Below are positions 5,602 to 64,000 of a stretch of DNA of 64,000 nucleotides, in pieces. The DNA comes from Acanthococcus lagerstroemiae. Lineage: Eukaryota > Arthropoda > Insecta > Hemiptera > Eriococcidae. The position numbers and the translations under genes are program-made. Where the stretch lies: NCBI GenBank assembly GCA_031841125.1, contig CM063108.1, positions 71,210,344 to 71,274,343 on the forward strand, written 5' to 3'. The notes below the pieces were generated by a model, which worked only from the letters and a program-made list of their open reading frames with translations, made no database searches and had not been told where the DNA came from. Numbering within the stretch: position 1 is the stretch's first letter; each line of letters opens with the position of its first letter.

Positions 5602-5784
5602 TGATAGAACAAAATATAGAACAAGAAGAACACACAAATAAATCTTCTGCCGATCTTAGGATAAGAAAAACTCAACATTCCACGTTGTCTCGTAAATTTG
5701 TTGAAGTGATGACTGAATATAATCGAACACAAACGGACTACCGAGAACGCTGTAAAGGCAGAATTCAAAGACAACTAGAAATAA
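5602..5784 (+). CDS. Syx1A: Syntaxin 1A exon: Hc helix to linker
   Basis: Internal coding exon of the plasma-membrane t-SNARE syntaxin 1, which pairs with SNAP-25 and synaptobrevin to drive synaptic vesicle fusion and is held closed by Unc18. The exon starts in phase 1 after a pyrimidine-rich acceptor ending TTCTTACAG and stops at AAATA-A before GTAAGT (phase 1). It encodes (V)[18 protein letters not shown] then [20 protein letters not shown] and onward to GRIQRQLEI. These are hallmark residues of the third helix of the Habc domain and the start of the linker, around residues 110 to 170 of animal syntaxin 1. The sequence is nearly identical to insect Syntaxin 1A, so I see no decay. Earlier exons (N-peptide, Ha, Hb) are not in the window. 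Confidence 0.96.
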
Positions 5785-8355
5785 GTAAGTGAGCCTAGTT
5801 TCTAAGTAATTCTTTTCTTTTTCCGCCGTTCTAGTTATTTTCGAGTAATCCATGTGCGTATAAATATTGGATGTACGAGTATCCCGACGGATGTCGGAAA
5901 AGAAAAAAGAGGAAAAACCCGAGAAGAATAAAAGTGCATTTTTACGCTATACCTGCGGGGCAGTTGGGCAGTCGCCTGTAGTATCATTGCGTAGGACGCC
6001 GAGCTCAACTTGTGAAATAATTAATTGACCCTGTGTGGGGGACTCGAAATGTAGGTTATGGAGTTCCAAATGGCGTAGTAACCTGATTCGGTGAAATGCG
6101 TTTTCTGTTCGCGGCGGGCGTCGTAAGGGCTCATGGCTCATTCTATCGAGCCAGTCGCAAATTTCGTTCACTTTTACTCGAGCACCGAAGGTGGAGGCTG
6201 CATGGTGTTCAATTCGCGAATTCGACGATCGAGTTGGATTTCGTATAGAGTGTACGTGTGCTTATCTACGTGCTCTGCGCGCACTCGTAGGATTTACTCG
6301 TACTCTCGTACTCGTCGTATTCTACAGATTCGAGAGTACCATTCGGGAAAAGGCCGACGATGCTTTTCATTCGTCCGTATTCTGGGGGTTTCATGTTTGA
6401 ATGCGCATATACGTACTTAACTTTTATATTATACCCGGCCCTTATAATCTTTTTAGTCTTCTCGTTCACGTGGATTGTATGTGCTCGGTGCGACTCGGAA
6501 GGCCGCGGATTTAGTCGAACCGTATTCGGAGAAAATTTGGTCGCCTAAATTAGTATCAGCTTATCGAGCGGAAATCCGGGCATTTCAAATGCTGACGACG
6601 TTTCTTCTTCTTCTTTTTCTTTTCTTTTTTTCTTTCTTTTCTTTTTCTTCACTTTCTTTCTTTTCACTTTCGTCGATGCTGAGCTGGTATAGCGACGGAA
6701 AGTCGTTTATGGTAATTCTCCGACCGCGTTTTCGAGATATTAGTCGTAACGCGGCGAAACGAAAGGCAGGTCTAACGCGGTTCGAAAATCATTTTATGTA
6801 AAATTGTGTTTGAAAATTGACGACGAGCGGCGCGGGTTTATGTCGAAGAGACTGAACAGGCTGATCGCGTCGCTCTTTGCTGTCTGTATGGAGTCACTGA
6901 CGCTGTGTGTTTTCTCGACGACCATCCGACATGCTTCACGAAAAGCTGGCCGGCCGTTTACCAATAGGTATCTACCGAAGTGTAAATAGAGAGAAATTTC
7001 ACCCGCCAGCTAATGCAAAGACTTGTTTCCTCGATGCTGATGGATTTCGAAATTAGTACAGCCGGTAAACTTGAACTAATTCGGAAACAAGATCTGAAAT
7101 ATACAAAACTATTCTCGAATCAAAGTTTGAAATTTAATTTTACTCATTCATTTCCTTGAGAAACCCTGGAATGTGATTAATACTCAATTCATGTGTATCA
7201 TAATCACTTACGTCGCCAGTGACGTTTATTTTTATTTTTCACGCCGAATTCGAATCTGAGGTTGTAATTTCAGTTCAGATTTTGGTTTCCTAAGGAAGCC
7301 CTCACATTTGAGTAAATATACTACATCTATGAAGATGGCATGAATTCCCGCTATCATATTAAATTCTTTCTTGCGCTATTTTGGAATGGGTTATCACTAT
7401 GGAAGATAAGAAGGAAACTGTATCAAGTTCAACGAGAGTAAGTCCGCAGCAGCTGTAGGTCGATGCACGTTTTGTAAGGACCGAATAGCAAGTTCACAGT
7501 GCATGCAGTGTTGTGAATTTTCTCGTCCCAACCACTAACTCAAAAATATTATATGCCTTCTCATAAATCAAAATATTCGATCTACTATTTTTATGCAAAG
7601 TTCTGGTACATGAATTCTCTGATAATTACACTACACAACGACCAAAAAGTCACAAAAACAAGAGTAGCCAATTGTGAGTATTTTTCACGGTAAATTCAAT
7701 GCTGTTCGTTTTTTGTTTTTCTTTTTCTTAATTAGCTTCCCTTTTCTCGTAAATTCATTCTGAATATTTCCCCATATTTCCCTTTTTTGTTTTAAATATT
7801 AAGGAATGTGGCTGCACTTCATGCACTACCATACATAAACTCACCAACACAGGTGTATGGACGTGTGACTTGATATCCAAAGATGAAAAGAGCTTATCAG
7901 TAGTATCAGTTCAATGCATCATCAGTGTCGCCACATAAAATAAAAGAACTTCTCAAAATACGCTATTTCATTTCCCAATAAACGTAATAAAATGATTAGC
8001 TAATTGAGCATTTTCAATATTATTTGAATTCAGCGTTAAGTATACGTTAAGGATCGTCTATTTTCCTTTGTGTGGTTTCCAAAAAATCTCAGTTTGTTGT
8101 GTAATGTTACTAAAAAATAAAAAGATGATTTTTTTTTTGTAATAATTATTACAAACTGAAAATAGGGGGGAAAATCAAAAATAACATCAAATTTATGGAT
8201 TGCACCCGCCATAAAATGGAGTGTTTCTTCAAATTTAAAGATCCTGCGAGCCAAAAAACTAAATTTCCGTGTGAAGATATTATCGGATGCGATTATGCGA
8301 ATAAATCTCAACTCAGTCCAGAAAATATTCGAGATCGTCTTGAATTTATATCATA
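5785..8355 (+). other. Syx1A intron, first part
   Basis: Starts with donor GTAAGT. The stretch 5940-7000 is CpG-richer and of mixed composition, and holds several open frames on both strands without convincing splice borders. A pyrimidine tract lies at about 6600-6670. From 7000 to 8355 I see only AT-rich intron with no recognised element. Confidence 0.6.
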
Positions 8356-25684: not shown

Positions 25685-25758
25685 CCGGTAGAACCACAAC
25701 GAACGAAGAACTCGAAGAAATGTTAGAACAAGGAAATCCAGCCGTATTTACGCAAGGG
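25685..25758 (+). CDS. Syx1A: Syntaxin 1A exon: linker
   Basis: Short internal exon of 74 nt. The acceptor is TTTTTTTTGTTGTTTCCAG, and the phase-1 start completes a Thr codon with the A left by exon 5602-5784. It encodes (T)GRTTTNEELEEMLEQGNPAV then FTQG, and ends in phase 0 before GTAAAT. This is the acidic linker between the Habc domain and the SNARE helix, the part that helps set the closed, Unc18-bound state. The sequence fits insect and vertebrate syntaxin 1 at the same place (TGRTT..ELE.MLE.GNPA). The donor is weaker than the others. The intron before it is 19.9 kb and holds the Helitron and the Tc1 copy. Confidence 0.96.
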
Positions 25759-26577
25759 GTAAATATCTTATTGGTGTTTCTTGTCGAGACGTTGGGTGTC
25801 TGTTGAGAGCCGGCGATAGAATTTTACGACGGGATAGAAGAATCGTCGCATCTTGGCTGAGTTTCGTTGCAGTGGCGGAGCGCAGGAGATTGAATGCGGT
25901 TGTACTTGCTTGCGCGCAGAATGTTAAGGTGTGAATGGTGAAGTTTTTTTTTTTTTTTTTGTGAATGGAATGAGCTTTCCAGTGTGCAGGGACAGTTGAA
26001 ACCATTTAGGTCTTCAAGCTCTTAAAAAAGGAAAGAATCGTAATTTTGTAATTTTTTCCATTATAATCAAATTGTGCATTTTTGTTTGAGGGGTAAGTCC
26101 TTGATATATTTCTAAGGGCGTATTTTGCTCAAATACGAACCCTTTTCCGCATTTACTTGGAAGCTACCCTATGTCAACTAAATGGGCTACAGAGTTTGTG
26201 AAAAACTAAAACTTTGAATTTAATAAATAGTTGGGCTATTATTGCGAAAAACTATTCGATGTGTATTATGATAAATGAAAAAGTGTATGCAAAAGACACA
26301 AACACAAAAGACCGTGTCAGTATGTAATGTCGAAGTGAAATACGATGAACAAAAATCAAACGCCACTTCCCCAGTCAAGTAACAGGGTTTAGAATTGAAA
26401 TTTTCTAATGGCGTCGTTCATTTAGCAATCCCAAAAGAATGCTACTGAAGACACGTACAAAGTGTTCCCCAATATTTTTTTGATCGCGAAGTGAGATCTT
26501 TATGGGACGAAAATGAATTTAAGTGAAAGAGCCTTGTTATTTATTAGGTTAAAATATTTTCTTTCCGTCGAGAGGTT

Positions 26578-29957: not shown

Positions 29958-29998
29958 CACACACACACCTGTTTTCTCTCTCTCTCTCTCTCTCTCTC
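29958..29998 (+). repeat. (CA)n and (TC)n microsatellites
   Basis: A short CA run (29958-29968) is followed by about twelve TC units (29974-29998). Confidence 0.9.
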
Positions 29999-31977: not shown

Positions 31978-32115
31978 ATTATAATGGAAACGCAGCAAGC
32001 GAGGCAAACGCTAGCAGACATTGAAGCCAGACACGCAGACATTATAAAATTGGAGAATTCGATAAAAGAACTGCACGATATGTTCATGGATATGGCGATG
32101 TTAGTCGAAAATCAG
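31978..32115 (+). CDS. Syx1A: Syntaxin 1A exon: SNARE motif, N-terminal half
   Basis: Internal exon of 138 nt, phase 0 on both sides, after a T-rich acceptor ending TTTTTAG and before GTATAA. It encodes [20 protein letters not shown], then [20 protein letters not shown], then MLVENQ. This is the N-terminal half of the Q-SNARE helix (layers -7 to 0) that zippers with SNAP-25 and synaptobrevin in the fusion complex. The last codon, CAG at 32113-32115, is the zero-layer glutamine (Gln226 in rat syntaxin 1A). The exon border therefore falls exactly at the ionic layer, and everything C-terminal to it can be swapped by splicing. The sequence is highly conserved. Confidence 0.97.
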
Positions 32116-35100
32116 GTATAAATGTTGATTCGATTGTGAAAATTTGCCGGCGAGGAATGGCGGTTGGAACGACGAAGTACGTGGAGAACCTTTGAACGGA
32201 GAGTGGGGAAGGAGCTATGACTCAGATAAAATTTCTGTTCTGACTGTCGAGAATTGGTCTGCGGGGAATCACTTGTAGTAAAATAGAATATTCGAGCTTG
32301 ATGTGTATATTTTTCTAAAAATTGATTCATATCTCGGTGTGAACCGTTTCGTGTTTATCTCGGAAAGAGGAACAAAGGGACATTTTATTACATATAAACT
32401 GTTGTTTAAAATTCGAGATCGAATACAAGTATATAATGATAGGTATTTATCAGGTGTACGTCCGATAATCTTAACAGTTGGAATGTCAGTTTGAAGTGTA
32501 CGTGGCGTATTTTACTTACCACGAACTGATGTGAAAATTCCTTTAATATTGCTAAATCGCGACGAGAAAAACCGTATGTGAAATTAGGTGTTTTCCAAAC
32601 ATTTTTCGCTTTTGAATCTCAACTTTTGAGCGTCTTGTTAACCTACAACAGGTAATATTGTCATCGTCCCGCGACTACCGTTAACCGTCTCGCTATGAAA
32701 AATGGTTACGTATTTAAAACAATCATCCCTTTTGAAATTTTCTGTACGATTAATTCTAATTCTGCAATGTCTATTAAGGCATTCGAAATAACAAACAGTT
32801 CATTCGTTTTAAAATTTCCATTTTAAAATAGTGTACTAATTTTTTGACATCCTTAATATATTTAGCATTTTATGCAAATCCTGTTTTCTTTTAAATTTTT
32901 TTAGACCCAAAATGAATTTTCTCACGGCCAGTAACTGTCCGAATAAAACGGAACATAGTTCGTCGAATATATTGAAAAAGAGCAGTGTTTTGTTGTTGTT
33001 TTTTTCCTAACATTATGGGATCTTAACTTTGGCCTAGTTTCAGGAAAAAAAAACTGGAGAAAAATAAATGGATTAATAAATATTATCTGCTTATCGTTCT
33101 GTGTAACTGTGAAGCACAATCATTAGGCCATGAAGTTGAGTATTTAAAAATATTTCGCCTTTTTAAAGTATTTCATTTAATGTAGGGTTTCTTTAATTTT
33201 TCCTGCTGAATCACTCGCTGTATACTGACGTAAGGTCGAAGAAGATGTTTTCCACAGGGTTGGTACGACCGCGTGCAAAAAGAATATTTTTTGTAAATAA
33301 AATGAAATCGGCATTGCATAGGATCGTATATTTCATTTGTTACTTAAATTACCACAATGAAGAATGTTACAGCTAACAACTATTTCATATTGTGTGTAAC
33401 TTATGCGAGTATGGCGATTGTTTTATTTGTATGACTGTTCTTGTAGTTTTACTCAACTAACATGTATATGTGATTTGAGCAAGGTGTAACCAAATTGAAT
33501 ATTTTAACTCATTTTCTGTTGTTCTGAGTTTACTTACACCAAATGATTGCTTCTGTTTTCGATTTAACCGAGTTGCAAGGTTTAATTAAAAGTTGAGTGT
33601 TTCTCGAAGTTGATTGCATATTTTGATCAAGAACCTATTAAACTGTAATGAGAAACGATATTCCATTAACAGCCCTCAGAATTCGTCTAGTAAAACGAAG
33701 TTTGTGTGCCTGATTCACACAGACACAGGGAATGATATGATTCCCAATTGAGAGACAACTAAATTATATCGACGTAACCAACATAGCAAAACGTTTCAAA
33801 AATTGGGCCTACATTTAGACTGATAGGAGATCCCTTTTTTCAAACGTTGTTCGAAGTTGATCAGATACCAATTCTTCTGCGAAGGTGTCGATATATTGTA
33901 AAGTGTGCGGAGGCGGGGAAGGAAGGAGATGAGTTAAAGAAAGTTATCAAAACGAATATTCTTATGTGAATACATTTTCCTGTTAATCAAAAGGAAGAAG
34001 TTGTGCTAATGGTAATTATAGTACGAGTATTGAAGACGACTTCAGTCAGTTACCATTCATTAATGTAAGTTCAACGGCTCTCGAACAAGTTCTCTCATCA
34101 AACGTGTTCTTCGTACTTCGTACTCCACTGTCATTAATCGTAAAAAACTACGAGTAATTATTTCTTCTTGTATTGATAATTGCGTGTATTTGTCGTTATC
34201 AGGGTTGGAAACTGTTCTGGAGGACAACTCCTGCAATTCCTCTCCCCCTTTCCCTGCTAATCCAAAATTCCCAGACCTTCCATCGTTTAGCTCATTTATT
34301 GAATAACAATACCTCATCCCACAATCTTCACCAAATTCGCAGTTGTTAGGTTTATTATTTCAAAAATAATCGTTGGAGACTTTTTTTGCTTCTTTGTACA
34401 AACACAGTCTAGGGTGTACATTTAACTGCAGAAATGAACATTTTTGATGACCTATCATCAAAATTAGCTTGGAGTGTATGCCCTTGCGTTCATTTTTTTT
34501 TTGTTCGCTCCACTAAGTCCGAAAACTAAAACCACTTCAGAGTTTCCAACCCATTTATGACAAATTAAAATCTAATACGTTTAATTTTAAACTTTAGTTA
34601 TTATGTTTTGCAATTACCGCAGTTTTGTTTCAGTTCTGTTTTCTTTTATAGCTAAATGCCATTTTAATTTGTAGCGCCAACGTGTTATTATTTGCTCACT
34701 TAATATTTGTCTGTAAGTTTTCGTTACATCATTTTTTTCTTCATCTTTCTTCGTTATTGCTTCTTTCACGTTGACTTTTTATTTTCGGTTAAATTAATTG
34801 GTAACTTGTAAAATTCTGCTTCGTTTATAGTTATATACTGCACGTAACTCTTACTTGTGCCCACTGCATCGCGTTTATTTCTGCTTTAATTGCAGCGCGT
34901 AAAACATATTATGCTGGAGTTTTACTTCGCCGTGTGGCTTGGCATATTACTTTTATTTTTTACTTTTTCATTTTAATGGAATAGCGAGCATGAAGTTGCC
35001 TTCCCTTTTTCATTCGTTTCGAAGTTACATTTAGGTTATTGAAGTTTTCCGATCTCTAGCGCCATTGAAAACTGAAATAACGAGAGGGAATTTTTGCACG

Positions 35101-36063
35101 AACGTAGCGCAGATTAACCCATGTAGAAAATTTGAGTGCACGAGCTGAGGAAATGATCGAGCTGATACTCAAGTCTGATCTATTGGCGGCTCCGCGAAAA
35201 ACGCTTCTCTGCGGACTTTTGCGATATAGTTCATTTTATTATGAGAATTTGAATCTGAAAAACCGATCTTTTCAGTCCATCTATCTTGCCTTCCAGATTT
35301 AACGTTATACTCTCGATAAAAAGTTTATTCATTAGACCGACGGTACTTGTTTTTCCCTCATTCGAAACTGTTGCTTAATACCGACGGGTTTTGATTCATC
35401 GCATGCGCTATCTCAGCCTGAATCTGATGATTTTTCATCTGCCACATCGTTTTCTACAGATTAAGTGCACGTTAGTTACTTGTTACAAGAACGAGAACGA
35501 TCACGAGTCATTTTTCTGAGGGAAGAGGGTTGTTGAAAAAATTATTCGATTCGTATTCGGACATTGTGGCGTTGAAAAGCAAAGTCCAGCAACTAACTGA
35601 GTCACAATCATTGTACAGAAATTTTTTTGGGTAAAAAGTTTTTTTTGTTTTTTTTTAATGTCTGCTTCAAACATCTCATATATAAAAGAATCCTCTCTCC
35701 CGACTGTAAAAAGAGCCTAATCAGATAGAGAAACAGACAGACTGTAGAGGAAACCGACAAAAAACAGCCTCCCCTCTCAGAAATGAAGTCGAAAGTTTGG
35801 AACCAAGAACCAAGATTCGGGATCTAGAAGCCAAGATCACGTCGACTACCAGAAGGCTACCAGAAAAGATTACGCTCAAGTTCCTGTGCCACATAGACAC
35901 GAAGCTTTCCCTTTTCCCTCCCCGTCGTGAATGGAAAAAATTCCGGCACCAAACATAAATAATGAACAGGTAGAGCTAGAAAGAAATGCAGATTCCGTAA
36001 TGATCTAATGCGCCGCTTTTCTATATTATGCTCGACAGATCCGAAGTCCTCTCTCTACTGCCG

Positions 36064-36065
<2 letters not shown>

Positions 36066-36094
<29 letters not shown>
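36066..36094 (+). repeat. 29-base A run
   Basis: Uninterrupted A tract in a purine-rich stretch. It may be the 3' tail of an old retroposed sequence. Confidence 0.9.
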
Positions 36095-37516
36095 CGGACT
36101 GGCGTATACTAAAAGACTGATAGACTGGCAGCCGGACAAAAAAAATCAGGGAGATCATTCCACTCCTCGATAGGTAGAAAGAAATTGAGCTACGCGCCAA
36201 GATTCAGAATTCGGAAGCTAATATTTCTTTAGCTCTCTTTATCCCCGTACTCAGTGTATATTTTGGTCTTGAATACTATACAAACTCAGAACTCCCTTCT
36301 GTCCTCATGGAAAGTAACTCTAGACTTGAAACAAGACGGACAGAGAAATCAGCAAATCAGTTAGTCAGTTCGAAAAGACAGATATACAGAAGTAACAAAA
36401 ATGACGGCATGCGACATCGAGTAAGGTGCCGGCATGAAACGAGCCGCAATCAACTAGAAGGTTGTGCCATGAAATGGCGAGGGCGAAGTTATCTTTCTAG
36501 ACGAACAAAGTGTAGCCTTATGAAATGAGCACGATGTATTTTCATTTTTCTTGTTTGATCCGAACTATGTCCGACCATCGATAGCAAGTGCTGGAATAAA
36601 TTGACTTAGAAATTTTGATATACTGTTTACTAAAATTAAACGACAGTCGAGTTCGTAGTTGGCCTAATCAGACTATTCGGGAAGAATGGCGGGGGGAGGG
36701 CAAAATGATTGTTCGAGGGGAAATGACGTTGCCCGGTCTTCTGCTCGTCTGTAATTAACTTAGTCAATTGAAATTTTGATAATGAACTTTCACAACTCTA
36801 ATTTGGTTTGAGTTCAGAAATGAGCCGAATCGGCCAATTTGATCGAAAGCCGGGAGTACTCAGAATGTGTGATTCTATTTTCAATAAAAATTCTATTTCG
36901 CGAACAGTAAATTCTATTAAACTTGCGACAAATACGTAGTATTATCTCTCTAAAATGTTCAAATTTTCTAATATAACTTTTGTTTTCATTCTTTTTTGTA
37001 GAATCAACAGTTGATTAGATTTTTGACATTTATGGTATTGGAAAATTCACTGATAATTATTCGATGAAATTACAGTATAAGCGATAATATTGTGCGCAAA
37101 TGTTGTTTTTTTTTTGCAGCAGAAGCTGTTAAACTGATACAATCTTAACTGTGAAGTTAAATAAGCATCTCTGTTAACGTAAAGTTTCATAATTATTACA
37201 GGAGGTGCTTAGTAGCAAGTCTACATCGGGTGTGGTGCATGCAACCCATTTGTTACATGTCCAAAGCATAATCTAAATTACACTTTATTATTACAAGACT
37301 AAGCTCACAACAAGAACGTCTTCAACGGGACAAATAACCAGCTGCGACGCTTAATACAGGAAGTCAAACGCGTTCTAATATTTAGATTTTGCAATCTGCA
37401 GTGTCCATTCTTCATCAGTTTGACTCGCATTGGGGAGGGGGTGCAACCAAGCAAATTTTAATTGCTTATGGCTTACCAAATACGCTGGTACGTAGTTGGC
37501 TCTATTATACAGAAGG

Positions 37517-37590
37517 TGTTGTAGCTTTGTGGTTTCGATGCTACCTAGCTGTGTCGAATGTCGATGGTTCAAACCCATATTGATAGTGAG
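37517..37590 (+). repeat. tRNA-derived SINE head or tRNA relic
   Basis: The segment has a D-arm-like A box (TAGCTTTGTGGTTTCGATGC) and a B box (GATGGTTCAAACCCA at about 37563-37577) at normal tRNA spacing. The cloverleaf is imperfect and the flanking sequence is not tRNA-like, so a tRNA-derived SINE is more likely than a working tRNA gene. Confidence 0.5.
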
Positions 37591-39319
37591 TTATATTGTA
37601 GCCATGAAGCTGAAATTTTAAAGTGCTGTGCATCCTGTTGCAGTGGCCTCTGAGTTTTGAGCTGGTGTAAGTCTGACTATTAAGGGCGGGGAGGGGGCAT
37701 TTTCTTATAGTCTATAGTTCGTTTCTTTTTTTCTTTTTTTTTAATTAATTTATTTATTTGTAAATAATTTTTTTACTCGTCTTCTCTTTTGGTTATTTCA
37801 CAATTTTCGATAGTTATATTCTTCTGTCGTCATATTTTATGAAGAATATTTTTCATCCCATTTATCAGCGTTGTTTCTCTAAACGTTGGTATTAATTACT
37901 CAATATGATTCATTCAAAATATGGGTAAAATGCAGCACATACTGAATGCTGTTATGAGAAAAGTGTCCAAGCGATGTAAAAATTCCATGACAGACTATGC
38001 TAACAAACATCATTTTTCTGGTGTTTTTTTTTTTTTTTTTGCATACTCTCTTATTTGATTTTTATATATTATTTAAACTTCTTTTATTTCATAGCGCCCA
38101 AATTCCATACAAAATTCTCTTGTAGCAAAATCTTTTAACTAACCACATTTCTTGAGTAACCCTGTTCAACTTGAGTTTGCCTCTTTAATTTGTTTCGAAA
38201 ATTCGGGGTACCTTTCATGGAAAGAGGCGAGTTGAAATACTGGCCCACTCGAAAAAGATTATTACGTTTTTATGTTAAGAACTAACATAAAGTTGAGTTA
38301 AGATCTAACTCGAAGATTTTGGACCGCAAGGGAAGGATTCAATATTCGAAGATTTTCGATTTCCTGACACTCAGTTGACGAAAGTAAAGAAAATATAGAA
38401 TCAATTGGAATAGATTGTGATGAATTTAAGAAAACAAATAATAAAGATATTTGAAAAGAATTGAACTTGGAAAATTTACGTAAGTATTTGACTGACACTT
38501 CGTGAATAGAGAAAGTGCCGGGTCTTATACGAGAAAATGAAGTATTATAATAACGCGAGACTTATAAAGTAAACGTCGGAATCGGCGATAATGTTAGAGT
38601 TTGACATACCTAATAAACAAGATAATTATAAGGTAAGTATGAGGTGATGTGTACAAAGGTTTTAATCTAAATTACAAAGTAGATACGTGGTATTGTGAAG
38701 TTAGAATTAGAGTTGTAATTAGTGCGATTGAATAAGCAGAAAAATGAGTATTCAGAAAGAATATCATTAAAAGGTTACGCATGACGTGGAATAAACAGGA
38801 TAAGCTAATGATAGATAGAAGGTAAATGGGAATTGATGAAGAGTGTAATATATTATGAAGTGAAAAATAAGTTCTAGAAAGTTGGGATAATTATTGGGAA
38901 AAATGTAAGACGTAAAAAGTGAGACATGATGGGTCAGGTCGTAACAACATCCTAGGCTCAAAAAGTCCCCAAATTTATTTTCCATAAATAGTATTTTACC
39001 CGCTGAGCTCTTGACTTGAGATTTGGGACTTAGGAGAAAGCTGTTGGCCTTAAATCTGACGCAGTACTTCTCGCCTCCAAAAGTTGACTGTTTCCTATAA
39101 AAATCAAGTAGCTTTTTAACTTGCGTAGTTTCGCATTTAGCTTTAAGACTGCCAATTATTATTATTACATATTACTTATATATGTAATATGTATTATTCG
39201 CTTTGCATGTAAATCGTTTCTTGGTGACGGTGTAACCGGCTGCATATGCGCACTAGTGTTGCAGGTGACGGGCATCTTTTTTCTCAGCTGTACGATGTGC
39301 TTGATTGTTACAATTTCAG

Positions 39320-39430
39320 GGAGAAATGATAGACCGTATCGAATACCACGTAGAACATGCTGTTGATTACGTTCAGACTGCCACACAGGACACCAAGAAA
39401 GCCCTTAAATATCAGAGTAAAGCTCGTCGG
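39320..39430 (+). CDS. Syx1A: Syntaxin 1A exon a: SNARE motif, C-terminal half (canonical)
   Basis: An exon of 111 nt (37 codons), phase 0 at both ends, between acceptor TTACAATTTCAG and donor GTGAGT. It encodes [20 protein letters not shown] then [17 protein letters not shown], which matches the canonical insect sequence. It supplies SNARE layers +1 to +8 and the polybasic KARR that, with the next exon's KK, contacts acidic lipids. Hydrophobic layer positions are I4, I7, V11, A14, V18, A21, T25 and A28 of the exon. It lies 565 bp upstream of a same-length, same-phase alternative (39996-40106). Confidence 0.97.
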
Positions 39431-39995
39431 GTGAGTCGTGTATTCTCGAAGAATCACCGTTGGCGCTCAAATTACATTTTCCTCGTTTTGTTTCCTTTTT
39501 TTTATTATTTTACTATTTATTTTTTAAATTTTATTTTCGTTTTTATTTTTCGCGCTAATGTTCTGTTTTATTTTGTCCACTTTTTTCTCTCGTTTTGTTC
39601 CTTTGACGATTCGCTTTCGTCCGACACGAAAACTCCTTCCTTTTTTTTCGTTTTTTTTTTCTTTTGCGTTATTTTTGTTTGTATTTTTATTATTATTATT
39701 ATTTTTTTGCCGTGATTTGTTCGTCTTACGACGCTTCATGCACGTATTTATGGTTTAACTTGCGGTCCTGTAAATGCACGCTAATTCGGTTTAATGCTCG
39801 GTGTCAATGTTCGCAACGTCGCTGCTTTTTTGTCTAACCTTTATCGCGTGTAACTCGGTTTTTAAACGTTGAACGTATAATCCGTCTTGCTCTGTTTTCC
39901 CTTTCCATTCGTGCCTTCGCTCTTCGCTCTGTTTCCTCTGTATCTTCCTCCCTCTTTCACCCTCCGCGTATGTGTACATTTCTCGGACCGAGTAG
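39431..39995 (+). other. Short intron between the two alternative SNARE exons
   Basis: 565 nt. It opens with GTGAGT, then carries a long T-rich pyrimidine tract (about 39475-39715). A second pyrimidine-rich stretch (TCCTCCCTCTTTCACCCTCC) lies before the acceptor of exon b. Such a tract could bind PTB- or Sxl-type splicing regulators; that is inference. Confidence 0.75.
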
Positions 39996-40106
39996 GGCGA
40001 ATTAGTCGACAGAATCGAGAATAACGTATCCGAGACAGCGTTTGTAATAAACCGCGCCAAACTAGAGATGGAAGTCGCCGAAAAGTACACGCAGAAAGCG
40101 AGAAAA
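39996..40106 (+). CDS. Syx1A: Syntaxin 1A exon b: alternative SNARE C-terminal half
   Basis: An exon of 111 nt with the same length and phase as exon a, between acceptor GACCGAGTAG and a perfect GTAAGT donor. It encodes GELVDRIENNVSETAFVINR then AKLEMEVAEKYTQKARK. It aligns without gaps to exon a, with 14 of 37 identical. Positions at the helix layers stay core-compatible (V4, I7, V11, T14, I18, A21, M25, A28), and DRIE and the basic KARK end are kept. Outward-facing positions differ strongly, for example Y9 to N, H13 to E and Y17 to V. I infer a mutually exclusive alternative to exon a that would change SNARE partners or regulators such as synaptotagmin, complexin or Unc18. Including both exons would also keep frame but would break the SNARE helix register length. 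No stop or decay is seen. Confidence 0.85.
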
Positions 40107-41284
40107 GTAAGTTTTTTTCCTCTACGTCGATTTCGACGGTCCCGTTTTCCCTGAGCATGGTTTTTTCCTCGGTCTCGCGTTTTTTCGCATACTCGTCGAT
40201 GTCGCGGTCCGTGTTCGAACGCTGTCCCTTACTGACGTATCCGACGAAGCGAATACGTAGGTACTCGTACGTACACAAATGTACGTCGCCGAACTGGAAT
40301 CCGCGTACTTGGAAGTGCACCGATACACGTCAAGTCTAAGTCCCGCGTCGTATCGAAATATGACAACGAACGCACGAACACAATCTATCCGTCCCCATCT
40401 TCGAGATTCCGAGAAATTGCTCCTTTGTATACAGTGGTCGGGGTTTACCACCATCACGACCTGGGTTCACACTTTGGAACGCTACAGCATATCTGAGGTT
40501 TTCGAATATTATTAAGACTCTCGGTTTGCCGGATTCAAAATTGTCATCACCTAAGTTCAGTAACGATTTTCCAGGGAGCAGTTCCCCCGTCTGCTCGCGC
40601 ATGATCGCAACTACTTCCCAAGTTCGTGAATGTTGTGATCAAATTTCCCAGTTCAAAGCGTTCCCGAGATCTTGAACAGCGACGTAATTTTTGAAAATGG
40701 CCAGCTAATACATTTGCCTTCCGCCGAATATATTTAAATGAGGAATTAAACGTACATTTCAACTCTTTTCACCTCGCTAAAAACTGAAGAAACCCTGGTT
40801 CCTCGTGTTCCCTTCTCCCCCAAAATAAAATAACATATCTTCTTCCTAGTCTTCGGGATTTTTTTTTTTTTTTTTACAATAATTACTTTTAGACCTATGA
40901 TGTACGACTTCAGGTTTCACGATATTCAGAGTTCTAAGTAATATTCCCGATTATAGTCAAGAGTTTGCGATTTAGCCGATCATAATTTCCAGTTTGTATT
41001 CGTAACAGTTCTCCAGATTTTTATGAAACCCAAGTAGTGGAAGGGATGTTTTCAGTTTCAAAATCACCACAGCGGGTACTAAGCCGTATTTTTAGAGTGT
41101 TAATCAATAGGGGGAATATATAATCGCTCATCAGAAAAAATGAATTTGCGCATCAAATTATCTACGAATATATATTCCTAGAGAACATCGAGTAAAATGA
41201 ATTTGCACGTCAATACGCGTACATCTGTTTTATCAATGTACACGTCATAATACATATGTTAATGAGCCCGTCATTTCGAACGTA
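40107..41284 (+). other. Intron after SNARE exon b
   Basis: The first 500 bp are CpG-richer and of mixed composition, with overlapping open frames but no clear exon borders. The remainder is AT-rich with a T run at 40861-40876. Nothing else recognised. Confidence 0.5.
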
Positions 41285-41705
41285 TGCACAATCCAGTTCG
41301 ATGTAGCCTATTTGATCCAGTTCTGTGACCATTAATTGGAGTTCATCCCTGTCCTGTGCTATTAAGGCGACGTCATCTGCGAACCTTATTGTTGAGCCAG
41401 ACCTCGTTTATTTTCAACCTCTTCTCCTCCCAGTTTAGGTTATGGAAGATTTCCTCCAGTAGGCAGTTGAGAAGATTTTGGGATAGAGGGTCTCCCTGGT
41501 TCGCACCTCTTTTGATTTCGAAGTATTGTTCCGTTTTATCCAGACGTACCCTCCCCTTTGAATTTCTATACATTTCTTCTGTTATTCTTCCCAACTTTCT
41601 CGGAACACCTTGTTCCCAGAGAGCCTCCCATAGTGCTGAGCACAAGATCGAATTCTGAAAGTCAAACAACAGTATTAGGTATTCAGGTTTTGATTGGATT
41701 CGGGG
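41285..41705 (-). pseudogene. RTE reverse transcriptase fragment 1
   Basis: The minus-strand frame 41726-41373 shows ALWEALWEQGVPRKLGRIT, a RVRLDK segment, FEIKRGANQGDPLSQNLLN and LEEIFHNLNWEEK. A frameshift then leads to IRFADDVALIAQDRDELQLM, so the FADD catalytic box is intact. The fragment is cut off at about 41705 where a foldback repeat begins. It belongs to the same broad family as the LINE at 590-5385, but it is better preserved. Confidence 0.85.
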
Positions 41706-41710
41706 GCAAC

Positions 41711-42775
41711 GGCTGAATTGCGCCAAATATAGGTTGAATTGCGCTTACTGCTCTTGGGAAGATAGACTGAATTGCGCCAACTCCGAGGAATACGATGGGC
41801 CGAATTGCGCCACGAAAGATTAATCGGAAAACCTTACAGAAGAATCATTCTTCTCGTCACACTTTATGCAGACTCTGCTACTTTTATTAGCTCACTTTCA
41901 GTCTTGATTCGTTTACATAGTTTCGCGTTTGTTAGTAGCACCGTTTTGTTGGCATTTATTTTTGATCCTACTTTCCGACATTATGCTCAGCTAGTTCGTT
42001 TGCCATTTTTTCCAGTCCCTTGCTGTCCTGAGAGATTGGCGCCACATTGTCAACAAATCTCAGATTACTGAGCCATTCCCCATTGATTTTTATGCCCTCC
42101 CATTCCCATTTTAATATTGAATAGATTGGGTGAGAGAGCTTCGCCCTGTTTAACTCCTCTTTCTATTTTGAATTTTGGTCCCGATTTGTCCAGACGTACA
42201 CCCTCCTCTCTGAATTTTTGTACATGTCTTCTGTGATTCTTATCAGTTTCTGTGGTATTCCTTGGCGACTTAGGGCTTTCCGAAAATCTACGAATAATAG
42301 GTATAATGGTTGATAATATTTCCTTGTTTTTTCTATTAGTTGTCCAATCATGAATAACTGGTCCCAGTGGTAGAATAATTTCTACGAAATCCTGCTTGTT
42401 CAGCACCTTGGCATTGATCCAGTTGTGAGTATTTGCGGTTTTTGATTATTTTGGCAAACATTTTTCCTAAATTTGACTTCAATCTTACTGGCCTGTAATT
42501 ACATATTTATATAATTTTTATCTCATTTCTTAAATAGTAATATGATTTTCGAAAATCGCCCCTATGTACGGACGTGCATGGCTGACGTGATTGAACGTGT
42601 CTTGTAGTTTGCAAGATGCTACACACATTTGCAGTCTTCAGTGTAACTTTCCTCGTTCTTGCGGTAAAATGAATCGTTCGCGGCGCAATTCGACCTATAC
42701 CTTTTCTGTTGCTAAGCGCAAATCAGCCTAAACCTTTTTCGCTCTCCGGCGCAATTCGACCAGAGCCAATTGGGG
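41711..42775. mobile_element. Foldback-like element carrying an RTE fragment
   Basis: The decamer GAATTGCGCC (or GAATTGCGCT) occurs in direct order at 41715, 41736, 41769 and 41802. It recurs in inverted order at 42682 and 42748, with a degenerate copy near 42714. These clusters bracket a second RTE fragment (41835-42510) and truncate the first. Iterated short repeats in opposite orientation at the ends suggest a foldback element. The exact ends and the target duplication were not found. Confidence 0.5.
41835..42510 (-). pseudogene. RTE reverse transcriptase fragment 2
   Basis: Read on the minus strand from about 42500: a YRPVRLKSNLGKMFAKI segment, AEQAGFRRNYST in a shifted frame, LFVDFRKALSRQGIPQKL, and then KFKIERGVKQGEALSPNLFN. 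It ends with a decayed ADD-like block and KINANKTVLL near 41900. There are several frameshifts. It covers much of the same RT region as fragment 1, so it is a separate copy. Confidence 0.8.
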
Positions 42776-43000
42776 CACCACATCCATCAATTTTTATGTT
42801 CATTTCTCATACGCGCGTGCAAAAAATTATTTCACGCCTTTATAATTTAACTCTGCCGTGAATTTATTATTTCAGTCGCGCAATTTTCTTAATGCGATGT
42901 AATATTCTGATAGTGATGGGATTTTATAAAATTTATGTGCAAAATATTCTTTATGCGTGCTGATTTTTTTTTTTGCTCTGAATTAGTTTTATTCTTGATA

Positions 43001-43270
43001 GGGGGTCTGGTTGGATGAATGGATAGCGCGCTGATCTCGGAATCCGAAGGTCTTGGGTTTGAGCCCATGTAACAACTCGCTACATTTCGACCTAGGCCGG
43101 TTTTTCGGCAATTAGAGAAGAGGGCTGAAACAATCCTAACAGCCTCCCCGGCGTCTCTGAGGTAATGCTCGAAAGGGCGAATTCCAGGACTCGGGTTGAG
43201 AGCAGAAAATTAGGGAAAAAAAGAGTCTTTCTCTTGATGGGCGATTAAATGGTACCCAATCAATAGACTT
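43001..43270 (+). repeat. tRNA-derived SINE
   Basis: The head resembles a tRNA gene, with an A-box stretch GGATGAATGGATAGCGCG and a B box GGGTTTGAGCCC at 43055-43066. An unrelated body continues to about 43270. The internal RNA polymerase III boxes are intact enough to be recognised. No terminal duplication was identified. Confidence 0.75.
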
Positions 43271-45878
43271 ACCTGTGACAATTTTCTGAAAAATTTCGCT
43301 TTCCGACCAAAAATATATTTTTGTCGTATTTTACGTACAAGTACAATTCGTCTAAACTACTGCTTAAAATTTCCGAAAGTAACAAGCAGACGGAAGATCC
43401 TTCCATTTTGATTTTAGTAATGTTGCCCCAATTTCAACGGCCCCGCTGTGAGAGATGTACGCTTCTATTAAAATTTCAAAAATTCAGATTCGTCATTACC
43501 AGTGTTCACAATTAACAGTATTGGCGATGATCACAGGGTCGTTAGCAAAACAGCAAATGAGTACATTATCTTCTAGCAACCCCCAAGCACAAAATAAAAT
43601 CGACGTTACCGCTTTCCCTTGCTGAAATTCCTTCCTCGAAATATTTGGCTTTCCCTTTCTGATATGAAAGGTTGGTTAAGGTTTTGAATTGTCATCACGA
43701 AGGTTTTAATCCAATGACTGGATAGGTATGTTGTATGTTGTAATCAAGAAAATCAAATTCACAACATTGGTTCTGAGAAATAATCTATTTCAAGGCTTAC
43801 AACAAATGCTAGTAAAATTATGCTCATATCATCGGTTCGGAAGTGAGAAATTTATTTTTTTCTCAGAATAATAAATAGTGTTACGTATAATTTTTAAAAT
43901 GTCAGCTATAAATCAGATTTTTTGATGTCGGTATTTGAAGAACTTTTCCCAAATAGAGGTTTAGTTTTTTGAGAATCCTTTCTGGTGAATAATTAGTGGC
44001 CGAAATTTCGAACTCGCTACATCCGATTTTGAGGGTATTTAAATGCATTCCCACTTCCGAAGTTTTCACAAGGGTTTGCAATCTGAAAATACCTATTTTG
44101 GTCCCTGAATTCATTATTAAATTCAATTTTATTCTCCTCCGTATTCTTCAAGTTCCTTAGCAGGTCGAAATACGCATTTAAAAAAAATGTTAGTTGCATG
44201 CTTTGCATTTCAATAAATGGGGGGGGGGGTCGAAATTCGAGTTGAAAATCTTCAACATTCGGGTTTTGTAATTCTGAGAATTTAGAACCGTAAGTACGTA
44301 AATATAGAAGTTGACTGCTCTACCGAGAAGTACCGTCTACAGGAGGAACATACTAAATTTATGAACTTCAGAATAGGAAGAAAAGAAAGAGAAACATTTA
44401 AATAATAATACCATTCATCGATTTCGTATCCGTATATGTACCTGAATGACCAAATCATATTTCCGTTGGAACCAAAGACTTGCATAAGTAGTTTAGACCT
44501 GTAACTAACCTCTTGTGTCGAGAGGACGGAGAACGAACATTTCTAAAAATTTTATTATTCTATCGTGGTGGATTTCATTATGTCAGTCCCTAAGAAGTGA
44601 TGCGAAGCTCATGTGCGAATAAAACGGAAATTTTTATTTTATTTTGAACCATCAGGATACTAACCACCAAAATCCTACTTGCTCCTCATCCCTCCTCACA
44701 CCAAAAATGGTTTTGCTCGCGGGCTATATTCTAACCGAAATTATGACTTGGTTACTTCTCATCGTCCATTGTGATTCCAGCTTGACAATATACCTACTTC
44801 TAATATCACCGGACAAATTCGAAGACTGTTCGTCGTTCAATTTCCCCTTTATTTGCTCCCGCGGTAGGTTGTACTCGCGAAATAAGACGATTTATAGCTT
44901 TTACACTACAAATCTCCGTCAGCAGTCTCACCAGTTCCACGTTATAATGAACTGGAGATCGGGGTGAATTTGTCGTATCATTTAAAACGTCCACCGAGTG
45001 CAGTAAAAGAGTAATTTACAAACCTCCTAGATACTATTAGGCGACGTAATCGATTTTTACTAGCGCGTCGCGTCGTACTCGAAAACGGACGGCTTCTTGA
45101 TTCGGCAAATGCTTTTTTTCTTCCTTCAATTTGTTAATTAGTTTAATTCGTAGAAACGTGTGACATGAGCGTATAAGTTGTAGAGTTTACTCATTTTTAC
45201 AATCGTTCGTTTGAATAAGACGCTGGCAGTCAACTCTTCTCATTAACAAAGCAAAAAAAAAAAATAAAATAAAAAAATGGAAAGTATGCAATGATCGACC
45301 AAACAGACTCGCGATCCATCTTTCTACCCTTCAAAATTTTTTAATTTGAGGAGGGAAGTTTTCAAACGTGTGTATGATTATTTCAACTTAGTAACTTATT
45401 AATTAACTGAGTGGCAGAAAGATACAGAAAATTCTATTCTCTGTTATGCTGTGGGTATTCAGTTTTTCAAAGTACACCTCGAAAAAAATTATTCTGAATC
45501 AGTTTGTGGCACAAAATATATTCTTCATATCTTTTCTTATTCAAAAGTCTTTATTGTTTAGATATCAAGCATATTAGAAAATACGAGCTGTGTTAAGTAA
45601 AACTCGTAGGTTGAATATCATCAATTCGATTATGGTCTGTCACTTTGTGTCTATTACTGAAAAACTCTGACAGTCTATCGTAAGCAATAGCGGAAATTGA
45701 TAGCGAAGATTTTCTGTAAAAACTTACTGCCCATTCCAACCTACAGCTAGAGGAACCCTCGAAGAATTTTTCGACCACACGTTCGTATTTTCTAGCATGT
45801 ATTTACAGTAAAAGTTGATAATAGTTTCTAGATCTACTTCGAACGTGCTAATATGTTCTGTCTTTTTGTTCCGAGCAG
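43271..45878 (+). other. Intron before the transmembrane exon
   Basis: No exon recognised. It includes an 11-base G run at 44219-44229. Several open frames (for example 44644-44967) have no family signal and are likely chance. Confidence 0.5.
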
Positions 45879-45962
45879 AAGAAGATCGCCATCATGATAT
45901 GTTTGATAATCCTGGTATTAATATTAGTCGGCTTTTTATCAAGTTTTGTTCCGTGGCCCTAA
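45879..45962 (+). CDS. Syx1A: Syntaxin 1A terminal exon: transmembrane anchor
   Basis: The last coding exon, phase 0 after acceptor TTGTTCCGAGCAG. It encodes KKIAIMICLIILVLILVGFL then SSFVPWP and TAA at 45960-45962. The two lysines continue the basic juxtamembrane stretch (KARR-KK or KARK-KK). About 20 hydrophobic residues then form the C-terminal anchor that fixes syntaxin in the presynaptic plasma membrane, with one Cys where syntaxins are often acylated. The residues after KKI differ from the Drosophila anchor, and the SSFVPWP tail is unusual, so this could be one of several alternative terminal exons. I found no second membrane-anchor exon in the window. Confidence 0.9.
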   Translation, partial: KKIAIMICLIILVLILVGFLSSFVPWP

Positions 45963-62334: not shown

Positions 62335-64000
62335 ACGGTTGTAGAATTTTCCGGTCGTTAAGTCATTTTTCATATTGCGTAGCGAACCAGCGTATTTCTT
62401 CTAGGACCGTCGGCATTTTTAGGTCGCGATGGATGTCAGCGTTGCGTTCAAATCGACTGATGGCTCCAACTATGGTGCATAGTGCTATGTTTTGGCCTCG
62501 TTGGATGTTGTCAATATTGGACTTACTTGCACAGCCCCACAGCTGGATGCTGTATGTCTAGACTGGCTTCAAACCACAACATAGAGTAGCCACTGGCACT
62601 TCAAAAATAACCAGGATTTTCGTCCCATTAATCAGTACGTCTATACAAATAGGTTTCTCATACATTCCCTCATCTATTGACCTTTCTGCGTCGTGTAATG
62701 CTGTCAATTCAGTTTTCTGTCGATATGCATTCCTAGGCGCGGTACTTTACCATATTCTTTTGTGGAATGATTCGACTCTCGGGTATGTATTGCCACATGG
62801 TGAAGTTAATACGTGTTGATTTCATGGCCTTCAGATTTTCCACTGGTACATCCGCCTGTGGAAGTTGTCAACTGCCTTTGTAGTTTTGCGGCCGCATTGG
62901 TGAGGGTGTCGGACACTGCTAACTAATATGGCCATGTCATTGGCGAACATCGCTGTTGTATTAATAAACGTAGGAGCATCTGCAGAGAATAGCAGGAACA
63001 AAATGGGTCCTAGGACGCTTCCTTGGGGCTCTCTTGTTGCGATGTGGCCTTGTTGTAGATTAGTCGAATCTGTCTTTCGCTGAAGCACGAGTCGATCAAG
63101 TCGCAGTAGTTCGTCGGCAGGTGTTGCCGCAATTTGTTGAGTAAGCCTATGTGCCATTCCTTATTGAAGGCTTGGGCGATATCCAGAAATACTCCACAGA
63201 AGGACTTTTTCTCCTCCTGAACTTTTCTTATTACATTGGTAACTCGATGGACTTGCTCTACTGATGTGAAGTGTTTTTGTCAGACCCGAACTAGTGGTCC
63301 GGTATTGGTTCTTTTTCCTCGATCAATAGTCTCAACCTTTTGTGAAGTTTCTCAAAGAGCTGTGACATGACTGGAAGAAGAGACATTGGCGGATACGACG
63401 CTGCTTATTCTGCTGGTTTGTCTGGCTTTAGTAGCATTATTACCCGGGCTTTTTTCATACTTTTGGTATATAAATTTAAGCATCGTATGGCATTAAATAT
63501 GAGTGTAAGCAGTACTATGCCTTTTTTAACAGCTCCTTAAGCATCCGCGCAATTATTTGGTCAAAAATTGAGAGGTTTTGGTCTATTTCTTTAGCAACCT
63601 CAGGGGGTGTGGAGTAACGAAAGGTTGCGGTTTCAATTAGATTTATCAATGGCATAGACCAGTCGGGTTCAGATAGTATATCATTTGTTTGGAATACTCT
63701 TTCAAAGTACCTCGCGTATGTACGAATATCTGTTTTCTCGGTCGCCGCGGGCCCACGTCCCGTCTTCTTTTCGGATGGGTGGTACATGCGCTGAGTATAT
63801 TTTCATACGTTTAGCCTTCTACAGAAAGCACTTGATGTCTTCTGTTGGTGTGAGTTGACTAATATAACAATGTGTTTTAAGGGTCTCGTTTTTAACCTCT
63901 TGAATTTTCACATACGTAGTTCCTTGTTTATATTCTATTAAGCCCAGTCGTGTCTTTCTAGCTTCGCGACTGGTGCCATGTCCGTCTTGCTTTCCATCGT
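62335..64000 (-). mobile_element. Jockey-like non-LTR retrotransposon, 5' end beyond the window
   Basis: A minus-strand LINE ORF2 runs from the right window edge to about 62335. Recognisable parts are PIRKEDGTWARGDRE and YARYFERVFQTND (about 63810-63680), the linker before RT, an LNLYTKSMKKARVIMLLKP-like block (about 63475-63415), QGSVLGPILFLLFSADAP (about 63035-62980) and a C-terminal tail with MPTVLEEIRWFATQYEK near 62370-62420. The organisation and motifs are of the jockey clade. No poly-A was seen at the 3' end. Confidence 0.85.
62335..64000 (-). pseudogene. Jockey reverse transcriptase ORF, broken
   Basis: The reverse transcriptase frame changes several times: 63787-63515 and 63157-62831 are open, and the parts between are shifted. 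The catalytic FADD box reads FANDMAILV, replacing an essential aspartate with Asn, so the enzyme would be inactive even without the shifts. The family reverse-transcribes its own RNA at a nicked chromosomal target. Confidence 0.85.

Follow-up and report, generated by a model that had tools for sequence, protein, structure and literature searches.

The syntaxin 1 of insects is generally regarded as a single, unvarying t-SNARE of neurons. Mutually exclusive exons that alter a neuronal t-SNARE are found in SNAP-25 (SNAP-25a/b), where, however, they concern another SNARE and another segment than those described here, and change few residues. In this work we analyse a stretch of 64,000 nucleotides from Acanthococcus lagerstroemiae (contig CM063108.1), hereafter the window, which contains the greater part of a syntaxin 1 gene of scale-insect type. 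Two adjacent exons of this gene, named a and b, are very probably alternatives, of which each mRNA receives one, swapping the half of the syntaxin 1 fusion helix that carries layers +1 to +8.

The same kind of SNARE-half swap is described for vertebrate syntaxin 3A/3B in PMC11476516, and by exon anatomy STX3 is a close parallel to the insect pair. The window gene differs from STX3 in being a syntaxin 1 paralog and in having no visible anchor swap, as one transmembrane exon was found. A further comparison is offered by C. elegans unc-64, a syntaxin 1 gene with tissue-chosen alternative 3' exons (UNC-64A/B, exons 8a/8b), whose neuronal form is favoured by UNC-75/CELF, according to PMC4946901. 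This gene differs from the insect one, since its alternative exons are 3'-end exons, each isoform has a C-terminal transmembrane domain, and no +1 to +8 swap is mentioned in the accessible text of the same paper.

Organization of the syntaxin 1 gene

A tblastn search with a presumed Drosophila Syx1A query located exons of syntaxin 1 at about 5604-5786, 25687-25761, 31978-32115, 39320-39430, 39996-40106 and 45879-45962, all on the + strand. The limits of the exons were set by splice-site inspection, the introns being GT-AG. The features of the gene are the following, with the evidence for each in brackets.

5602..5784, + strand: coding exon of syntaxin 1 for part of the Habc domain, IEQNIEQ...RQLEI (95% identical to the presumed Drosophila Syx1A in tblastn; splice sites)
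25685..25758, + strand: syntaxin 1 coding exon, GRTTTNEELEEMLEQGNPAVFTQG (tblastn, splice sites)
31978..32115, + strand: coding exon of syntaxin 1 for the N-terminal SNARE half, with the zero-layer Gln last (tblastn, splice sites, PDB alignments)
39320..39430, + strand: exon a, canonical C-terminal half of the SNARE motif, +1 to +8 (tblastn; identical in 19/25 collected exon-a peptides)
39928..39967, + strand: CU-rich tract 5' of exon b, candidate PTB-type regulatory site (composition; putative role)
39996..40106, + strand: exon b, alternative C-terminal half of the SNARE motif (tblastn; homologous segment in many insects)
45879..45962, + strand: transmembrane exon and stop codon, KKIAIMICLIILVLILVGFLSSFVPWP* (tblastn, splice sites; similar to the Planococcus P0004 and Kerria P0003 tails)

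Residues 1-98 of the Syx1A query had no convincing tblastn match in the window, and the 5' exons of the gene are therefore probably located to its left. The 131 residues preceding the a/b position are identical to those of Planococcus P0004 at 130/131 positions. Together with the shared KKIAIMIC anchor, this similarity indicates a scale insect or something close to one; Kerria, another of the nearest sources, belongs to Coccoidea.

Exons a and b encode probable alternatives for one half of the SNARE motif

Exons a and b are neighbours and homologs that agree in length and phase: each spans 111 nt in phase 0-0, is free of stop codons and is flanked by AG and GT, and the encoded peptides are identical at 14/37 residues. 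The preceding exon, 31978-32115, ends with ...MLVENQ, and in alignments to PDB matches its last Gln corresponds to the zero-layer Gln of rat syntaxin-1A. Taking the layers +1 to +8 to be, as we presume, rat syntaxin-1A residues 230, 233, 237, 240, 244, 247, 251 and 254, the layer residues read I I V A V A T A in exon a and V I V T I A M A in exon b. Exon b keeps the layers, while most of its outward-facing positions are changed with respect to exon a.

The Pfam SNARE model (cut-off 26.8) gave 71.7 bits with exon a and 41.3 with exon b, and no Pfam SNARE match was obtained at E 0.001 when both exons were skipped. With exon b, the protein has both a Pfam SNARE match and, following the zero-layer Gln, layers of hydrophobic or small residues, as in a syntaxin (Qa-SNARE) motif. 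Five open 111-nt AG..GT stretches in phase 0 are found on the + strand of 32116-45800, and only a and b are SNARE-like; no convincing further copy of a SNARE exon was found in the window.

A preliminary description of this locus had reported the position, length and phase of the two exons, their 14 identities over 37 aligned residues, the end of the upstream exon on the zero-layer Gln and the hydrophobic or small residues at the layers of exon b, and all these points are borne out by our analysis. Its assertion that the splice sites are strong needs correcting for the acceptors, which are pyrimidine-poor (13/22 at positions -25 to -4 in exon a and 12/22 in exon b, against 16-18 in the other four exons). 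The donors of exons a and b are GTGAGT and GTAAGT. An extra AG lies 3 nt before the exon b acceptor, as it does in the transmembrane exon.

Three side observations concern the same region. The exon b acceptor (39990-39998) is a tandem GAG/TAG, and use of the upstream AG would give an in-frame TAG directly after the zero-layer Gln codon. The CpG observed/expected ratio is 1.73 at 39000-40500, around the exon pair, versus 1.12 in the whole window. On the - strand, an open reading frame of 152 residues (39862-40320) runs across exon b and has no Pfam match at E 0.01.

Exon b in other insects

Homologs of exon b, which the preliminary description had suggested looking for, were recovered from insects of many orders. 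Specifically, three protein searches seeded on exon b, in a database clustered at 90% identity, gave 6, 13 and 78 matches, corresponding to 82 distinct proteins (P0003-P0084). One of these, P0084, is a nematode syntaxin and was left out of the counts. The remaining 81 insect homologs carry b only in 55 cases, a only in 20 and both in tandem in 6, so that exactly one of the two exons is present in 75/81. There are no intermediates, as b segments have 11-22 identities to a, and a segments have at least 34.

Exon b occurs in beetles, a cockroach, termites, scale insects, a whitefly, moths, mosquitoes, a flea, a lacewing, mayflies and locusts. Its named sources include Kerria lacca, Planococcus citri, Bemisia tabaci, Diaphorina citri and Clastoptera arizonana; further ones are Periplaneta, Zootermopsis, Cryptotermes, many beetles, Chrysoperla, Ctenocephalides and Timema, together with the moths Cydia, Choristoneura and Leguminivora and the mosquitoes Uranotaenia and Wyeomyia. 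More diverged forms come from the mayflies Cloeon and Neocloeon and from the locusts Schistocerca. Hymenoptera and Drosophila are not among the matches, which is uninformative given the b-based seeds and the clustered database. The peptide nearest to exon b of the window is that of P0081 (28/37; coding sequence of 873 nt, contig no longer than 1379 nt), followed by Planococcus and Kerria with 22/37 each. In two Schistocerca proteins, P0082 and P0083, we noted a divergent 37-residue b-like segment (one beginning DATIDRIQYHV...) that keeps the layer pattern without the usual GE start and KARK end.

Many of the b-bearing proteins are annotated as syntaxin-1A isoforms, among them Planococcus citri X5, Bemisia tabaci X2/X4, Periplaneta americana X3 and Tenebrio molitor X4; these annotations consist of names, and no described function was found for them. 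The earlier view of the isoform as an unknown one is not supported, since its homologs are annotated in many insects and vertebrate syntaxin 3A/3B is a close parallel. Among the open-licence PMC papers listed by the searches, none describes the insect a/b exon pair. The insect syx1a papers PMC6194137, PMC5717273 and PMC12853126 deal with syx1a expression, methylation or genetic variation, and the strings 'isoform' and 'splic' are absent from the main text of PMC6194137. The insect exon pair is already in annotations and is undescribed as far as literature searches reach.

Probable mutually exclusive use and conservation of exon b

Forms with a and with b from the same species were compared in six cases from five named species, namely Periplaneta, Zootermopsis, Cryptotermes, Bemisia (two comparisons) and Onthophagus. 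In each case the two proteins have equal length and differ at 20-24 positions, all within the 37-residue segment. The pair P0062/P0012, an a form and a b form, shows 17 differences. Nineteen proteins are encoded on contigs shorter than 2 kb, and 10 of them carry b, 9 carry a and none carries both. These contigs are probably spliced transcripts, as judged from their spare lengths and not from records, because the 152-899 nt left beyond the coding sequence leave little room for several introns.

Conservation was assessed on 52 distinct b peptides, the window included and the two divergent Schistocerca proteins left out, although the layers of the latter (I I V G V A L A) fit the same rule. All layer cells (416/416) are hydrophobic or small, versus 26% of the non-layer cells at positions 5-31, and at most 69% are so when the comb of layers is shifted to nine other registers, from -3 to +6; the peptides being related, the layer cells are not independent and the 416/416 carries no probability. 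The +7 layer, which is Thr in exon a, is Leu in 43/52 b peptides. The mean pairwise identity is 54% among the 52 b peptides versus 95% among the 4 distinct forms of 25 collected a peptides. In addition, the distance from the first residue of b to the membrane anchor is exactly 37 residues in 58/61 proteins. Because the layers are conserved and the anchor spacing is nearly constant, exon b is, so far as its sequence tells, kept as a SNARE segment, with much of the outer face presumably free or under changing selection.

In conclusion, the same-species differences confined to the segment, the single-exon content of most homologs and the layer-restricted conservation all together support a mutually exclusive swap of a and b, in agreement with the preliminary description.

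Possible control of the exon choice

The tract at 39928-39967 contains 35 pyrimidines in 40 nt, of which 18 are C. Its pyrimidine count is matched by 207 of 127,920 40-nt segments on both strands, and 7 of these also match the C count; the 7 fall at two places only, the tract itself and 29960-29962. The 100 nt upstream of exon b contain 20 PTB-like motifs, a number reached by 0.4% of the + strand segments, compared to 3 upstream of exon a (reached by 51%) and 0-6 upstream of the other exons, with thresholds and motif set, for the tract as for the motifs, chosen after inspection of the sequence. The CU-rich tract before exon b suggests a candidate PTB-type control. In PMC3907290, a model for mouse PTBP1 assigns to a mouse Stx3 exon with a 111-position span an acceptor score of -3.62 and a predicted repression probability of 0.84, and Table 1 of that paper includes this exon among the 50 top-scoring predicted PTBP1-repressed exons. 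From its length, we infer that it is the SNARE-half exon of Stx3.

Docking and selector RNA pairing systems occur at insect mutually exclusive exons, and the swap might be real while exclusion is brought about by competing intronic RNA base pairing and not by a PTB-type repressor. We consider this rather unlikely. When about 450-500 nt of each intron were compared in 60-nt pieces, within this genome, one of three intronic region pairs came out just below all 12 shuffles (-35.7 versus a minimum of -35.3), whereas the other two fell inside the shuffled values (-42.0 versus a minimum of -43.1, and -33.1 versus a mean of -33.3). Thus, no clear signal of base pairing as the exclusion device emerged from these three region pairs and 12 shuffles.

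Alternative readings of the two exons

Several observations weigh against a regulated choice between two functional exons. Messenger RNAs with both exons or with neither would stay in frame, so the reading frame does not enforce exclusion, and searches seeded on b could not reveal mRNAs with neither exon. Six of the 81 insect homologs (P0019, P0022, P0040, P0041, P0052 and P0071) carry the two exons in tandem, always in the order a then b. Exon b lacks a following anchor in 3/61 proteins (P0052, P0066 and P0071), which have other tails, and its fast evolution would also fit relaxed constraint. Moreover, the pyrimidine-poor acceptor is common to exon a, and so does not single out b for repression.

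The preserved frame and the six tandem proteins would be compatible with a and b being independent cassette exons, both of which could be included to give a t-SNARE helix 37 residues longer. Five of the tandem proteins, however, are gene predictions, because they lie on contigs of 0.6-36 Mb, while P0071 has no listed contig. One of the six, the psyllid P0040, is identical, except for the 37 residues of exon a, to P0079, which carries b alone on a contig of at most 1034 nt. Since none of the 19 proteins on short contigs has both exons, the pairs from named species carry one or the other, and tandem inclusion would lengthen the stretch between zero layer and membrane anchor by 37 residues, we regard independent cassettes as very improbable.

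The least credible reading takes exon b for a degenerating copy of exon a that is seldom if ever used. It would account for the much faster evolution of b and for its pyrimidine-poor acceptor, a trait shared by exon a, but was rejected on the conservation of all layer cells and of the anchor spacing. Exon b is moreover found in proteins whose contigs are too short to hold several introns, and many insects have annotated isoforms with it.

With a and b as mutually exclusive exons, one of the two would be spliced into each mRNA, and the same use is expected in A. lagerstroemiae by analogy with its relatives. Either choice would leave the Habc domain, the N-terminal SNARE half and the zero-layer Gln of the t-SNARE unchanged, and only the +1 to +8 half would differ. 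The kept layers suggest that exon b yields a working t-SNARE, in which the changed outward face and the replacement of the +7 Thr by Leu or Met may affect the final stage of zippering or the binding of partners. The b form would possibly serve cells other than the standard synapse, and a PTB-type protein bound to the CU-rich tract may repress b. The +1 to +8 half takes part in the last zippering step, and a conserved natural variant with kept layers and mostly changed outward positions would offer a means of separating core zippering from partner binding. Given the spread of exon b in insects, its expression and function are testable in beetles, mosquitoes, moths and cockroaches.

Possible relation to the vertebrate syntaxin 3 switch

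The insect pair bears on the age, as opposed to the convergence, of the vertebrate syntaxin 3 switch. The b consensus shares 20/37 residues with a presumed STX3A 37-mer, 18 with exon a and 18 with rat STX1A, and the mean identities over the 52 b peptides (16.0, 17.0 and 16.3, respectively) do not discriminate among the three. No syntaxin 3 chain was matched when the presumed STX3A letters were compared with PDB, and identity to the presumed vertebrate paralog sequences does not separate shared ancestry from convergence. It is conceivable, though we hold it doubtful, that insect a/b and vertebrate 3A/3B derive from one ancient exon switch in an ancestral animal plasma-membrane syntaxin, whose single gene would have yielded both a synaptic and a non-synaptic t-SNARE through splicing under PTB-type control. 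Vertebrates would then have kept the switch in STX3 and split the forms among STX1-4, and some insects may have lost it.

Other features of the window and transmembrane tails

The four open reading frames of at least 150 residues in the window had no Pfam match at E 0.01; one of 166 residues lies at the left end, on the - strand (1255-1755), likewise without a Pfam match at this threshold. An Rfam scan of the window gave no match at the gathering threshold.

A second transmembrane exon was sought in the window, which ends at 64000, and only one anchor exon was found; a second one may lie beyond 64000 or may have been lost. Among relatives, the b form can carry either of two transmembrane tails, as in Cryptotermes, Bemisia and Diorhabda (pairs P0005/P0007, P0010/P0011 and P0031/P0067), and the a form has a tail of the KKILIIIC type in Periplaneta, Zootermopsis, Cryptotermes and Bemisia. 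Since insect relatives also switch between two tails, up to four syntaxin 1 forms per gene are possible in them.
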